From: Pseudobdellovibrionaceae bacterium
GTDB lineage: Bacteria > Bdellovibrionota > Bdellovibrionia > Bdellovibrionales > UBA1609
Length of the DNA: 59,858 nucleotides
Direction of reading: 5' to 3'
Assembly: GCA_030591685.1 (NCBI GenBank)
Contig: JAUVAX010000013.1
Location: 1 to 59,858, forward strand
Part shown: one piece after another, positions 1,775-51,358 of the stretch
Position numbering within the stretch: position 1 is the first letter of the stretch
Layout: every line of letters begins with the position of its first letter
The notes under the pieces: model-generated
What the model saw: only the letters and a program-made list of their open reading frames with translations
Databases searched by the model: none
Told to the model about the DNA's origin: nothing
Translations under genes and position numbers: made by a program

Positions 1775-3787
1775 ATGAGATGGTTCGAGAGTTATACAAA
1801 AGCGTCATTAAAGGTAAAGATCTCTGCAATGACTGCGACAATGTTATTAGTATATACGTTGGTGTCGGTGATGTACGTGTCAAACCTCTATACAAGGCAA
1901 AAAGATTCAACGGCAAAAAGTGTCGAGAGCTATGCGCTGAATACATCTTCAGGGATTGGTCAGGAATTTAAAGGGCTTTATTGGGGTGCACAGAACATTG
2001 CTTTAAATAGAATATTTGAAGATAAAACTAATGTTGCTGATATTGAGGGCTTTTTAAGTGCAATGGTAGAGCAGAAATCCTCTTACGAGCTCATTGTTTT
2101 TATTGATGCTAATGGTAAATTTGTAGCTTCAAACAGTAATAGCTATGAAGGGACAAAAGTTAACAGGGAAGTGTTAAGGGCTAAAAACTTTTCTACACTG
2201 GCTTGGTTTAATAGAGCTTTAAAAGAAGAATATACTGACGAAGAAGATTTAGGCCTTATGGGGACCTATGTTGAGGACTTTCATAGAGACTCTCTAGTCT
2301 CTGAAGTCATGGGTAAGGAGTCTTATCTGTCAGGGTTTTCAGCAGCTGTTAAAAATAAAAGTGGACAAATCATAGGGGTGCTGAGTGTCAGGACTAATAT
2401 GGACTGGGTTAAAGAGAGATTTGAAGATCTATACACCTCTATGTCTAAAGAGGGGATTTTCAAGACAGAGGCCTATTTTGTGAATAAAAAAGGTAAGTCG
2501 ATGTTTCATCATAGTCCATACGAAAAGCTAAACACCGGTTTTTTAACAACAGATCTTTTAGCAATGGGTGTTGGTGGAGTTAAAGAGGCTGTTGTAGATG
2601 CAAACTCGGGCTTTGGCTCAGGCATAAAGGCCTTTGTAGATAAAGCGCCATCGTTTGTTGGGTATACGAACCTTTCGTTTGATACAATGAGCATGTTGGG
2701 CTGGGGGATTGTAGTTAACGTTGAGGAGAATCAACTAATAGGTGCTCTTTCAAATCAAGTCGGTATCTTTTATGCTCTTGTTGTTTTAATGTGTGGAGCG
2801 TTTTTACTAACGGCCTTAAAACTAACAACAAGGGAGTCAGACAAGCTAGTTCTCACAACTGAAGCCTTGAAGGCGCGATCTAACTCATCAGTCATTACGA
2901 GTGGAAACTTAAATAAAGTATCTTCAGAGTTATCAGATGCTGCTCGGTTACAGCAAGAGGCGGTACAAGAAACAATGGCCGCCCTTGATCAAATGATGTC
3001 CATGCTCTCTAATACAAATAAATATGTTGAAGAGTCACTCTCTGCAGCTGACGGAGTGAATAAGAGGACTCAAGAGGGTAATAAAATTATGATTAAAATG
3101 GAAGACTCTATGCAGTCGATCCAAAATTCAAATGCAGATTTGGAGAAAATATCTAAAATCATCCAAACCATTTCTGAAAAAACAAATGTAATTAATGAAA
3201 TTGTGTTTAACACGAAGCTTTTAGCATTTAACGCATCCATTGAGGCGGCAAGGGCAGGAGTTCATGGTAAAGGGTTTGCCGTTGTTGCCGAAGAGGTTGG
3301 TGGATTGGCCCAGTTATCAGGAGAAGCCGCTCAGGAGATTGATAACCTTATTAAAGAGTCAAAATCTCAGGTGACCTTAGTGGTGAGTGATATAAGAGAG
3401 CGAATCACACAAGGGGACAAGGTTGCAGGAAGTGCTCAGGAGAAATTTCAAGAAATTTCAGTGGGCTTAGGTCAAATGACTCAAAAGGTACGTGATATTT
3501 TAGGTGCAACAGCTGAGCAGGAGTCTGGAATTAAAAAAGTGAATGAGGCCATGAGAAATATTGATGACCTTACTCATAGGAACCTAGCTTTAGCACATGA
3601 CTCAGATTCACTGTCAAAATCTGTTAATGAAGAAGCCTTTAAACTTGAAGCTATCATGGAGCAAGTAAGAAAACTTCTCTTAGGATCAAGCGGCCTCGAA
3701 AATTTAGCCCGAAAAGCTATGGGTAAAAATGATCAAATGCGGCCGAGGAAAACTAATCGCAAGAAAACCTTTCCAAGGGCATCGTGA
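1775..3787 (+). CDS. Methyl-accepting chemotaxis protein with periplasmic Cache-like sensor
   Basis: A chemoreceptor of 670 residues that would sense a periplasmic ligand and control a CheA kinase. ATG 1775 is chosen because AAGGGG lies just upstream; the frame is open back to a GTG at 1700 without comparable support. Transmembrane helix 1 spans about 17-37. A roughly 290-residue periplasmic region with Cache-like spacing follows, then helix 2 at about 329-349. There is no recognisable HAMP domain after helix 2. The signalling hairpin is clear at about 470-520 (LLAFNASIEAARAG, GKGFAVVAEEV, LAQLSGEAAQEI). Only 3 bp separate its stop from the FHA gene downstream, so the two should form one operon. 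Confidence 0.93.
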   Translation: MRWFESYTKASLKVKISAMTATMLLVYTLVSVMYVSNLYTRQKDSTAKSVESYALNTSSGIGQEFKGLYWGAQNIALNRIFEDKTNVADIEGFLSAMVEQKSSYELIVFIDANGKFVASNSNSYEGTKVNREVLRAKNFSTLAWFNRALKEEYTDEEDLGLMGTYVEDFHRDSLVSEVMGKESYLSGFSAAVKNKSGQIIGVLSVRTNMDWVKERFEDLYTSMSKEGIFKTEAYFVNKKGKSMFHHSPYEKLNTGFLTTDLLAMGVGGVKEAVVDANSGFGSGIKAFVDKAPSFVGYTNLSFDTMSMLGWGIVVNVEENQLIGALSNQVGIFYALVVLMCGAFLLTALKLTTRESDKLVLTTEALKARSNSSVITSGNLNKVSSELSDAARLQQEAVQETMAALDQMMSMLSNTNKYVEESLSAADGVNKRTQEGNKIMIKMEDSMQSIQNSNADLEKISKIIQTISEKTNVINEIVFNTKLLAFNASIEAARAGVHGKGFAVVAEEVGGLAQLSGEAAQEIDNLIKESKSQVTLVVSDIRERITQGDKVAGSAQEKFQEISVGLGQMTQKVRDILGATAEQESGIKKVNEAMRNIDDLTHRNLALAHDSDSLSKSVNEEAFKLEAIMEQVRKLLLGSSGLENLARKAMGKNDQMRPRKTNRKKTFPRAS

Positions 3788-3790
3788 TCA

Positions 3791-4996
3791 GTGAAGTATA
3801 GAGTAAAGTTTGTATCTCCAATAGAGGAAGTAGTGAAAGAGGTTGATAAGACCTCTTTCTCTGTTGGTAGGGGGCAGGCTTCTGATTTAGTGTTTTTGCA
3901 CCATGAGTTGAGTCGAAAACATTTTTCAATAGATGTTCGAGATAATAAAATATTTATTACTGACCTGCAGTCCTCAAACGGTACTTTTATAAAATCTAAG
4001 CAAATAGAGCCAGGAGTACCAACAGAGCTGCAAGAGGGAGACTCAATAGGTTTTGGTGGACCTATTGATTTTTATTTTGAAGTTTCTATTTTAGAGTTAA
4101 AATCGGGAATTAAGGACTCAAGCACCGAGACGCAGGCCGAACCCCGTGTTTCAGCCACAACGAGTCAAAACTCTGAGGAGGCAGCATCAGAGCCTGAAGT
4201 TGAAATCAAGGCCCCAGATGCCCCAGAGGAAAGCATAAGGTCACACGTTTTGTCGAACGCACCGGAACAATGTGGCCCTCAAGTTAATTTGAATGATGAA
4301 AAAAATGATATCGTACTCCAGGAAGTTCAAGAAAGAATAGAAAAAGCGAAGTACGAACTATCAACAGTTATTGAAGCAAAATCAAAACTTGAGGTTGAGG
4401 GCCTGAGCCTTGAAGAAAATTTGAATTTGGAAAATGATAAGTTAGGTTTGGTCAAAAAGAACCTCTCAGAGCAACTAAAAGAACAGGACGAAATAAAGGC
4501 AAGACTGCATGGTCTGCGCGACGAGGAGCAAGGTCTCTCTCGTGAGGTGGCAGCTTTAAGAAAGCAAAAAATAAATATATCTGAAGAGCTTAAGCAACTG
4601 TCCATAGATCAAACGGAGAGCAAAAAAATTGAAGAGGGAATGTTGGCCGAGATTAACTCTTTAAAGAGCATCAGAGGCTCTATCCAAAATGAAATTGATG
4701 ATGCTCATGCCGAACAAGGCACAATAGAGATGGAAATTAAAAATTTGAAAAGCCAGGCATCAATAAGTAAATTGCCATTAAACACTGAAGCCAACGAGTC
4801 TCCGTTGCAGGAGGCGAGTACGGCGCCACACATAAATCCCACGCCAGTGAATAATGATGAGTATCTTGTTTCAGAGGAGTTAGAGTATAAATTGTCGAAA
4901 TTGGCAAAAGTCGAAGAGTCTATAGAGGACATGTTAAGACTTTTAGAGGTGCTTGAACAAGAAATTAACGATCAAGAGAGACGAAAAGCCTCATAA
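3791..4996 (+). CDS. FHA-domain protein with long coiled coil
   Basis: A 401-residue cytoplasmic protein starting at GTG 3791, 3 bp after the chemoreceptor stop. Residues 1-92 form an FHA domain, with the phosphopeptide-binding signatures VGRG (about 25-28), SRKHFSI (about 42-48) and SSNGTFI (about 61-67). FHA domains bind phosphothreonine. A Glu/Pro/Ser-rich linker runs to about 175. A long coiled coil from about 180 to 325 and a shorter one near the C-terminus suggest a dimeric scaffold. Coupling to the chemoreceptor suggests a role in organising a receptor array or linking it to Ser/Thr kinase signalling. That role is inferred; no kinase gene is in the window. Confidence 0.88.
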   Translation: MKYRVKFVSPIEEVVKEVDKTSFSVGRGQASDLVFLHHELSRKHFSIDVRDNKIFITDLQSSNGTFIKSKQIEPGVPTELQEGDSIGFGGPIDFYFEVSILELKSGIKDSSTETQAEPRVSATTSQNSEEAASEPEVEIKAPDAPEESIRSHVLSNAPEQCGPQVNLNDEKNDIVLQEVQERIEKAKYELSTVIEAKSKLEVEGLSLEENLNLENDKLGLVKKNLSEQLKEQDEIKARLHGLRDEEQGLSREVAALRKQKINISEELKQLSIDQTESKKIEEGMLAEINSLKSIRGSIQNEIDDAHAEQGTIEMEIKNLKSQASISKLPLNTEANESPLQEASTAPHINPTPVNNDEYLVSEELEYKLSKLAKVEESIEDMLRLLEVLEQEINDQERRKAS

Positions 4997-8669: not shown

Positions 8670-8745
8670 TGGATGGGGTAGCAGGACTCGAACCTGCGAA
8701 TGCATGAATCAAAATCATGTGGCTTACCAACTTGCCGATACCCCA
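8670..8745 (-). tRNA. tRNA-Gln (anticodon TTG)
   Basis: Read on the minus strand, the acceptor stem TGGGGTA (8745-8739) pairs with TACCCCA (8680-8674) over 7 bp. The anticodon arm CATGA-TTTTGAT-TCATG presents TTG, which reads CAA (Gln). The T arm GCAGGTTCGAACCTGC is canonical. A genomic CCA is encoded at 8672-8670 after an unusual T discriminator base; tRNA-Gln usually has a purine there. A plausible promoter lies just upstream. Confidence 0.95.
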
Positions 8746-49209: not shown

Positions 49210-50100
49210 TTATTTTGTTAAAAGCCCCTCTAAATTTTTTTTCATAAACTCAGGCATGGCAAAAGCCGCTCTGTGGGTTTCTATATTATAATACCCAAAG
49301 CTCAGTTCAGACTCACTGACCCGGGCTTCGTTAAAGTCATTTATTGGGTGAAGCCCCTTTGATGCAAAAGAAAAGGACCAAAGCCCTCCGGGATAGGTGA
49401 GGTTATGAAAATTATAAAAGGTCGCAAAAGAGAACTGGCTTTTAAGAATATTTAATAAAGATCGTTGTGCAGCGACTTCATAAAATGGTGACTCCCCTTG
49501 AGAAACAACGATCCCATTTTCAGTTAATAGTTGACTTAATTCACCGTAAAACTCTTTACTAAAAAGGGGCTGAGCGGGCCCGATGGGGTCTGTTGAGTCA
49601 ACTAATATAACATCAAATTTTTGCTCCTGGTTGTCAGAAACCCACTTTACAGCATCGGCTATGATGAGTGTTAATTTGGGGTGATTAAAAACACAGGCTG
49701 TTTTTTGTATGTGTTTTTTACAGGCATCTACGACAACATTATCAATTTCAACCATGACACACTCTTCGACATTTTGGTGTCTTAATACCTCACGCGCAGT
49801 CCCTCCATCGCCGCCGCCAATGACTAAAACCCTCTTAGGGTTAGGGTGAACAAACAAGGGCACATGGGCAATCATATCGTGGTAAATAAACTCATCTCGC
49901 TCAGACACCATGGCAAGGCCATCATTAAATAGCATCTTGCCGTGTCCGTAAGTTTCGATCACATCTACAGTTTGAAAATCACTTTTTTTAGAAAAAAGAG
50001 ACTCTTTTATGCGATACCTCATGCCGTAGAAGCCTCTGAGTTTTTCTTCAAACCAAGTTTCATTGGATTTATCGAGGGGGAGTTCGTAATTTTTGCTCAC
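49210..50100 (-). CDS. speE: Spermidine synthase
   Basis: A 296-residue aminopropyltransferase that makes spermidine from putrescine and decarboxylated AdoMet. The AdoMet fold shows VLVIGGGDGGTAREVLRH and VEIDNVVVD, and the catalytic/polyamine loop is DVILVDSTDPIGPAQPLF. I start at GTG 50100: AAGGAA lies 7 bp upstream and MSKNYELPLDK fits the family start. The frame is open up to 50208 but that part overlaps the AdoMet decarboxylase gene in another frame. The gap to that gene is 10 bp, so the two pathway genes form an operon. Confidence 0.95.
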   Translation of the reverse strand: MSKNYELPLDKSNETWFEEKLRGFYGMRYRIKESLFSKKSDFQTVDVIETYGHGKMLFNDGLAMVSERDEFIYHDMIAHVPLFVHPNPKRVLVIGGGDGGTAREVLRHQNVEECVMVEIDNVVVDACKKHIQKTACVFNHPKLTLIIADAVKWVSDNQEQKFDVILVDSTDPIGPAQPLFSKEFYGELSQLLTENGIVVSQGESPFYEVAAQRSLLNILKSQFSFATFYNFHNLTYPGGLWSFSFASKGLHPINDFNEARVSESELSFGYYNIETHRAAFAMPEFMKKNLEGLLTK

Positions 50101-50110
50101 TGTAGTTTCC

Positions 50111-51064
50111 TTATAATTGTTTAGCTGTTTTTGAATTTTTAATATTGAGAGATCTAAGGGCCTCACCGTTTGACTGCTTAAAGTGGCAATGGTTGACGGT
50201 GTAGCCACAGCTTAAATTGACCTTTGTGGCCTCTTTTAAGTCAAAGCCTGGGACATCTATAAACTCTTGAGCGCAGGCTCTAAAAATAACAACATCAAAA
50301 GATTTTGGTTTAAAAATATCTACTATTTTTTTAAGTACTGGGGAGTAGTTTTGATCAATTTTTGTGTTGGTCTCAAAGCTTACATAAGAGCTGCTGTCTT
50401 GAGGGGTTACGTGCACTGTATAGTAGTCACGGCCCTTAACAGCATTTAACGAGTACCCACAGGGGTCAAAAACATGATCATCAATAATAAACCCAGGTAA
50501 AACTTCACTAAACTCTAAGGCCTTTTGTATTTGCTGAGTTGAGCACAGGGGTTGATTAAAAATTTTTCGGGCCTCGCCCTGTAAACCATACATTAGTATT
50601 TCTAAAGTCACATCTTCAGGAGGAGGGGAGTAGGGTTTATTGGAGTGAAACAGATAAAGGTGGTGAGCCTCTTCTTCACCAAAACAATAGGTGTCGCCAG
50701 AGATATAGGTCTCTAATAATTTTACATCGTCGAAAAAATGAGTTTTTTGTTTTTCGGGGAAGTACTCGTTTTTTCGCTCATAGGTTAAAAACTCAACGGA
50801 GTCTTTGCCTAACTGATCTAAGCAGTGAGCCACGGCTGATGCCAAAGTGGTCTCACCACAGGTGATCATAGTGAATCGATGATCCCAGACAAATAAACTC
50901 GACTCAGATAACAAATATAAATCACATTGCGAGGATGAAATTTTTGATAGTATTTGCGCCTTCGAAGCTTTAACAACGCCAGCCCAAAACTCTGGCCCCA
51001 GGCTTCGCAAATTTACACCTGAGACAACGACTTCTACTTTTTTCTCTGAACCTTCAAAATTCAA
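50111..51064 (-). CDS. speD: S-adenosylmethionine decarboxylase, eukaryotic (AMD1-like) type
   Basis: A 317-residue pyruvoyl enzyme making decarboxylated AdoMet, the aminopropyl donor for SpeE. It matches the eukaryotic proenzyme and not bacterial SpeD. Numbered from TTG 51064, NFEGSEK carries E4 and E7 (human E8, E11). LLSESSLFV contains the self-cleavage site E54-S55 (human E67-S68), and C69 in TCGETT matches human C82. DPCGYSLNA and VHVTPQ hold the Ser and His needed for processing, and SYVSFETN follows. TTG 51064 (AAAGGAAG upstream) gives the homologous N-terminus. An in-frame TTG 51148 would add 28 hydrophobic residues. A bacterial protein of this class is rare. Confidence 0.9.
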   Translation of the reverse strand: MNFEGSEKKVEVVVSGVNLRSLGPEFWAGVVKASKAQILSKISSSQCDLYLLSESSLFVWDHRFTMITCGETTLASAVAHCLDQLGKDSVEFLTYERKNEYFPEKQKTHFFDDVKLLETYISGDTYCFGEEEAHHLYLFHSNKPYSPPPEDVTLEILMYGLQGEARKIFNQPLCSTQQIQKALEFSEVLPGFIIDDHVFDPCGYSLNAVKGRDYYTVHVTPQDSSSYVSFETNTKIDQNYSPVLKKIVDIFKPKSFDVVIFRACAQEFIDVPGFDLKEATKVNLSCGYTVNHCHFKQSNGEALRSLNIKNSKTAKQL

Positions 51065-51358
51065 TGTTGGAACTTCCTTTAAAAAATGTACTCCAAATTT
51101 TTGAGTCACCTGAATGGTCTTGCTAGCTAAAAAAACAAGAAAAATCAACCACTTCCTGAGTTCAGGTGAGGTTTTTTAACGACCTACATGGAGACTCTGT
51201 AGGAGGGCACATGGGTCCGAGGGCCTGTAAATTTCAAAGCACTGGGTCAAAATAGGATTTCTCGATTTAAGTGATATAACAGGCTAAAGGTCTAGATTTA
51301 ATTAACATTTTAGAGAATATAACCGAAATACTCATAGTAATGAAAGTTGGATTTAGAT

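Follow-up and report, generated by a model that had tools for sequence, protein, structure and literature searches.

How does a bacterium come to carry, beside its spermidine synthase gene, an AdoMet decarboxylase (AdoMetDC) of the class 2 or "eukaryotic" type, and could the gene have been gained from a eukaryote? The locus that raises this question lies in a 59,858-nucleotide stretch of DNA, referred to below as the window, which belongs to contig JAUVAX010000013.1 of a Pseudobdellovibrionaceae genome (GCA_030591685.1) that is 100% complete and distributed over 98 contigs. Positions 50111-51064 form one open frame of 317 codons on the minus strand, and the plus-strand reading of the same interval contains many stops; the original prediction, which had been made from the sequence alone, gave the right position in plus-strand numbering, but the gene itself, amd, is on the minus strand. 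Its linkage to speE across a 10-bp gap, which had also been predicted, was confirmed, with the GTG of speE at 50100 (Table 1). Several relatives of amd likewise start just before the FEGxEK motif, often with TTG. RNA gene detection in the window yielded a single tRNA-Gln (TTG) at 8670-8745 and nothing else.

Table 1. Features of the amd-speE locus, in window coordinates.
Feature	Position	Strand	Basis
amd, class 2 AdoMetDC proenzyme, 317 aa	50111..51064	-	PF01536 match, AlphaFold model, Foldseek
amd start codon, TTG	51064-51062	-	sequence
amd stop codon, TAA	50113-50111	-	sequence
Ribosome-binding-site-like AAAGGAAG, 8 nt upstream of the amd TTG	51073..51080	-	sequence
E54-S55 codons, predicted self-cleavage site (human E67-S68)	50900..50905	-	alignment with human AMD1
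C69 codon (human C82, catalytic cysteine), 14 residues past S55	50858..50860	-	alignment
S205 to H218 codons (human S229, H243)	50411..50452	-	alignment
speE, spermidine synthase, GTG start at 50100	49210..50100	-	NCBIfam matches
Ribosome-binding-site-like AAGGAAA of speE, sharing bases with the amd stop codon	50106..50112	-	sequence

To assign the enzyme class, the amd protein was compared with domain families, solved structures and a predicted fold. Its only Pfam match was SAM_decarbox (PF01536), at 236 bits and an E-value of 7.3e-70 over profile positions 3-334 of 343, passing the curated cut-off of 22.2 bits tenfold, and the class 1 SpeD family PF02675 gave no match. These scores exclude a chance match to PF01536, which was matched in none of the 14 control genomes. 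Against NCBIfam TIGR00535 the protein scored 173.6 bits (E 5e-51), under the curated equivalog cut-off of 233.15, which is a naming threshold and not a mechanistic feature. In a sequence search of the Protein Data Bank, the closest solved structures were human AMD1 (E 3e-36) and the T. brucei and potato AdoMetDCs; far from being the best matches, class 1 SpeD proteins were absent from them altogether. An AlphaFold model built from 41 bacterial class 2 sequences (mean pLDDT 92.3) contains the two-domain fused fold in one chain and was aligned end to end by Foldseek with the human AMD1 proenzyme (TM 0.86, rmsd 2.3, 320 columns). The PF01536 and AMD1 matches, the fold and the residues described below all back the earlier assignment to class 2 and not to class 1 SpeD, and the gene encodes a full-length class 2 ("eukaryotic-type") AdoMet decarboxylase proenzyme, whose function is well supported by homology.

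The residue-level comparison was based on an alignment of 69 bacterial and four eukaryotic sequences. Window residues F3, E4, E7, E54 and S55 correspond to human F7, E8, E11, E67 and S68, and C69, F199, S205, H218 and E231 to human C82, F223, S229, H243 and E256; every one of these positions, including the E54-S55 pair, is invariant across all 69 bacterial sequences. The roles of the aligned catalytic residues are established for the human AMD1 family, and S229 and H243 are required for self-processing of the human enzyme. The motifs that had first drawn attention to the protein (an acidic pair, an ESS site, a cysteine 14 residues further on, and GYS and VHVTP segments) therefore hold up, as E4/E7, E54-S55, C69, S205 and H218. 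All four residues of the human putrescine site, E15, D174, E178 and E256, are kept as E11, D151, E155 and E231, and human K80, near that site, is replaced by I67, as it is by isoleucine in T. brucei; putrescine stimulation is not common to all class 2 enzymes. Human F111 is T94 in the window, and the substrate-site residue E247 is Q222, both E and Q being found across bacteria at this position. A three-residue insertion after human Q123 is present in all four eukaryotic sequences and, at that length, in none of the 69 bacterial ones, the window included; one Desulfobacterota sequence has two extra residues there. In summary, the window protein shares with human AMD1 (PDB 1msv, 1jl0) the two-domain fold, the ESS site, the catalytic residues and the proenzyme length, but differs from it in being about 32% identical, in lacking the insertion, in the K80 to I and E247 to Q replacements, and in the position of its gene beside speE.

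The genomic setting agrees with a place in spermidine synthesis. No class 1 SpeD was found in the window genome by a search that was positive in 8 of 14 controls. The genome encodes two ORFs of the Orn/Arg-type decarboxylase family (399 aa and 641 aa), which could be the sources of putrescine. The speE product scored 340.8 bits against NCBIfam NF002010 (cut-off 260) and 297.7 bits against TIGR00417 speE (cut-off 249.6), and its closest solved structures are the Thermotoga and Bacillus SpeE, so that no eukaryotic origin is suggested for the operon partner. By homology, the proenzyme would cut itself between E54 and S55, S55 would become the pyruvoyl cofactor on the alpha chain, and the resulting enzyme would decarboxylate AdoMet; SpeE would take the decarboxylated product to convert putrescine into spermidine, the class 2 enzyme presumably substituting for the usual class 1 SpeD in this lineage. 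Self-cleavage, catalytic activity and co-transcription of amd with speE are the parts of this scheme that we infer.

Other roles for the protein can be imagined, among them an activity outside spermidine synthesis, like that proposed for AdoMetDC genes beside MFS-SpdSyn fusions. A locus in the window's own order lends this idea some substance: a divergent 266-aa class 2 relative (L052:1487-2287) adjoins a membrane protein of 671 aa that has a domain similar to spermidine synthase (2268-4283), a pairing reminiscent of the MFS-SpdSyn arrangement for which a role outside polyamine synthesis has been proposed. The neighbour of amd, however, is an ordinary speE above the NCBIfam cut-offs, as is the case at nearly all Bdellovibrionota loci, and we consider such a role very improbable. 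Slightly less probable still is a neofunctionalised enzyme with ornithine or arginine as its substrate, a change documented for some class 1 SpeD homologues; although neofunctionalisation is widespread in class 1 (PMC10407285), amd is paired with speE in a genome without any other AdoMetDC, its class 2 catalytic residues are kept, and separate Orn/Arg-type decarboxylases are present.

The distribution of class 2 AdoMetDC was then considered at increasing phylogenetic distance from the window. It is present in 40 of the 47 genomes of the window's family, and within the order it also occurs in families f2, f4, f5 and f6, with a divergent form in f10; the f10 protein (L051:1955-2875) lacks the FEGxEK motif and has no adjoining speE. 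Across Bdellovibrionota, 87 of 353 genomes were above the cut-off, family f12 forming a second large block and f22 contributing one genome. Two further genome matches (L049 and L050, E about 5e-4) were rejected as false positives, being located in ABC transporter genes. In a wide scan with one genome for each GTDB species, class 2 relatives were encoded on at least 339 bacterial contigs, the best 80 of which were read, ranked by a likeness to human AMD1 that favours eukaryote-like bacterial proteins. The enzyme is found in at least eight phyla: Desulfobacterota, Spirochaetota, Myxococcota, Bdellovibrionota, Planctomycetota, Acidobacteriota, Elusimicrobiota and Pseudomonadota. The bacterial records are mostly metagenome bins, but several carriers are named isolates or have complete chromosomes (Desulfonema magnum, Marinomonas phaeophyticola, Pokkaliibacter plantistimulans and Endozoicomonas sp.), and bin contamination is therefore not the explanation. 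Outside Bdellovibrionota the distribution is patchy: genomes above the cut-off numbered 4 of 246 in Planctomycetota, 1 of 247 in Spirochaetota and 4 of 237 in Acidobacteriota, while Desulfobacterota had class 2 in 2 of 297 genomes but in 30 of 194 within the order of one Desulfobacterales carrier, each phylum or order count taking in the genome on which it was centred. Two IMG/VR scans gave no class 2 enzyme in viruses, where PMC9992855 did not find it either.

A further acidobacterial protein of 407 aa, 86% identical in three genomes (L183:661-1884, L184:1375-2598 and L185:713-1936), matches class 2 in its C-terminal half only, just below the cut-off (PF01536, E 3e-4), and its N-terminal half contains EESH...NTCGDSL, reminiscent of class 1b. 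The protein may have branched off deeply from class 2 or may stand between class 1b and class 2; its predicted structure, with a pLDDT of 36, was too poor to discriminate between these readings.

The pairing of amd with speE extends well beyond the window. Counting only non-redundant loci that no contig end interrupts, the two genes are adjacent in 108 of 137 cases (63 of 67 for Bdellovibrionota), and the same order recurs in Desulfobacterota, Spirochaetota, Elusimicrobiota, Acidobacteriota and Planctomycetota, at least six phyla in total. Among 20 class 2 genomes drawn from eight phyla, 19 had no class 1, and the ORF apparently behind the single class 1 match (L154) has no canonical SESH site. 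Family f1 has class 2 and no class 1 apart from one cross-match below the cut-off; family f8, of the window's class, has class 1 in most genomes, mostly as ORFs of ~430 aa, and no class 2. The only ORF of this sister family that was read (L170:1483-2766) is a class 1b SpeD-SpeE fusion, in which the same pathway step is joined to speE as in the window, but through a class 1b enzyme and within one ORF. Within one order, this pair of spermidine steps is thus coupled in two distinct fashions.

To place the gene, three unrooted trees were inferred under LG+C20 models from 93, 72 and 73 sequences, and they agreed with one another. Eukaryotes were represented by human, yeast, Arabidopsis and T. brucei, with potato in the first tree only (five in all); the yeast and Arabidopsis sequences and the terminal portions of the human one are provisional, the checks covering human residues 5-285, which were compared with solved chains, and Arabidopsis, which matches the potato chain at 65%. 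The eukaryotes form one clan in all three trees (SH-aLRT 82; 98/82; 96/83), and this clan joins Desulfobacterota, Spirochaetota and one planctomycete, away from the window (91; 100/94; 98/95). The nearest relatives of the window protein are two members of its own family (L014 and L001), and it lies inside a 27-sequence set of families f1 and f12 (96/91) that includes three Oceanospirillales and one Myxococcota. The bacterial part of the tree departs in places from taxonomy, with Elusimicrobiota, Myxococcota, Acidobacteriota and Oceanospirillales falling among or beside Bdellovibrionota, and some transfer between bacteria is therefore needed. In three Oceanospirillales isolates (L141, L143 and L144), whose genomes are without class 1 SpeD, the class 2 protein groups with Bdellovibrionota family f12 and no speE adjoins its gene; an apparent transfer from Bdellovibrionota is suggested by these sequences.

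Horizontal gain from a eukaryote had been one of the two origins put forward in the original prediction. The family is indeed the eukaryotic one, with human, trypanosome and plant enzymes as its closest solved relatives. However, the best bacterial match of the window protein is 56% identical and the best-scoring eukaryotic match about 32%, most members of the window's family have class 2 and it also occurs in a second family, the eukaryotic insertion is lacking, the linked speE is bacterial-type, and the gene is nested in a broad Bdellovibrionota clade, the very placement that the prediction had itself set against a foreign origin. Such a gain by the window genome or its close relatives is, in our judgement, scarcely credible. 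The other proposed origin, an ancient bacterial reservoir, is supported by the broad bacterial clade, the conserved amd-speE order and the at least 339 contigs. The gene would have come via bacteria, as part of an old amd-speE operon that, to judge by these relationships, was handed down within Bdellovibrionota and passed at times between bacterial phyla. It is highly probable, taking role and origin together, that amd encodes a functional class 2 AdoMetDC in spermidine synthesis that was acquired via bacteria and is no recent eukaryotic gene.

Whichever way it went, a single and very ancient crossing from one domain to the other is required, and the evidence on its direction concerns the deep origin of class 2 only. 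Human AMD1 lies about equally near to Desulfobacterales proteins (184 bits, 35% identity) and to Arabidopsis (176 bits, 38%). Minimal ancestor deviation (MAD) rooting placed the root between the two bacterial clans with the eukaryotes nested on one side (0.233) and disfavoured a root on the eukaryotic branch (0.262, rank 11 of 142), and thus leans towards passage from bacteria to eukaryotes. Class 1b SpeD provides a second line of evidence. A single chain of this enzyme (Thermotoga maritima, 1tlu, 1vr7) corresponds to one half of the class 2 fold (Foldseek E 2e-5) and has a faint sequence likeness to the C-terminal half of the bacterial class 2 family, but it differs from the window enzyme in its length of about 120 aa, its SESH cleavage motif and its Pfam family, PF02675. 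Some bacterial class 2 C-terminal halves matched the class 1b profile in a constant register, the best of them from Desulfobacterota and Spirochaetota (top 18.3 bits), against 5.4 bits for the best of five eukaryotes and 0 bits at most for reversed controls; the window protein itself gave next to nothing. When group alignments were compared by hhalign with class 1b, the E-values were 1.8e-4 and 9.8e-5 for bacterial groups versus 0.015 for the eukaryotic one. These results fit bacterial class 2 being nearer to a class 1b ancestor, but slower evolution or the larger bacterial sample could give the same pattern, the eukaryotic sample being tiny. A C-terminal-half tree with class 1b as outgroup was discarded as saturated (a branch of ~10 changes per column, with the human sequence jumping into Desulfobacterota), and the profile comparison of the N- and C-terminal halves of class 2 gave no usable signal, so that rooting the two halves against each other was abandoned.

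At a little short of an even chance, class 2 may be a bacterial invention: it would have arisen next to speE in some lineage resembling Desulfobacterota or Bdellovibrionota and been taken up by the last common ancestor of eukaryotes. Invention in eukaryotes, with a single ancient passage to a bacterium and later spread together with speE, is rated equally likely and is compatible with the rest of our explanation; it draws on the published phylogeny as given in PMC10407285 (ref. 46), on the patchiness of class 2 outside Bdellovibrionota, and on the compatibility of the unrooted tree with a eukaryotic-branch root, whose MAD value is not far removed from the best, while the preferred MAD root and the bacterial C-terminal halves that are more class 1b-like than the five eukaryotic ones speak against it.

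Bacterial class 2 enzymes are reportedly limited phylogenetically and functional enzymatically. According to the account in PMC10407285, class 2 AdoMetDC, the same enzyme class as that of the window, occurs in some bacteria, which obtained it from a eukaryote (Li et al. 2019, Biochem J 476:2579); with such enzymes already published, this locus is less of a surprise than had been assumed from the expectation that a bacterial AdoMetDC is normally class 1. The same article treats class 2 as a eukaryotic invention with a bacterial SpeD fusion as its proposed ancestor, and describes degraded SpeD fusions in Desulfobacterales, the order with the bacterial proteins most like human AMD1 among the matches listed. 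As far as that account goes, bacterial class 2 AdoMetDC was already known, and what the present analysis adds is its breadth (at least 339 contigs in at least eight phyla), the conserved linkage to speE and the near-exclusion of class 1.

For the organism, a Bdellovibrionales-type bacterium, the window gene completes spermidine synthesis with an AdoMetDC of the eukaryotic form. For the family, an old amd-speE operon in at least six phyla, and the enzyme in at least eight, reopen the question of which domain invented class 2, and the spread of class 2, its linkage to speE, its near-exclusion of class 1 and the position of the eukaryotes beside Desulfobacterota offer a testable handle on the origin of the essential eukaryotic AdoMetDC. 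If the bacterial invention is true, it would reverse the published view, in which eukaryotes invented the enzyme and a few bacteria received it.
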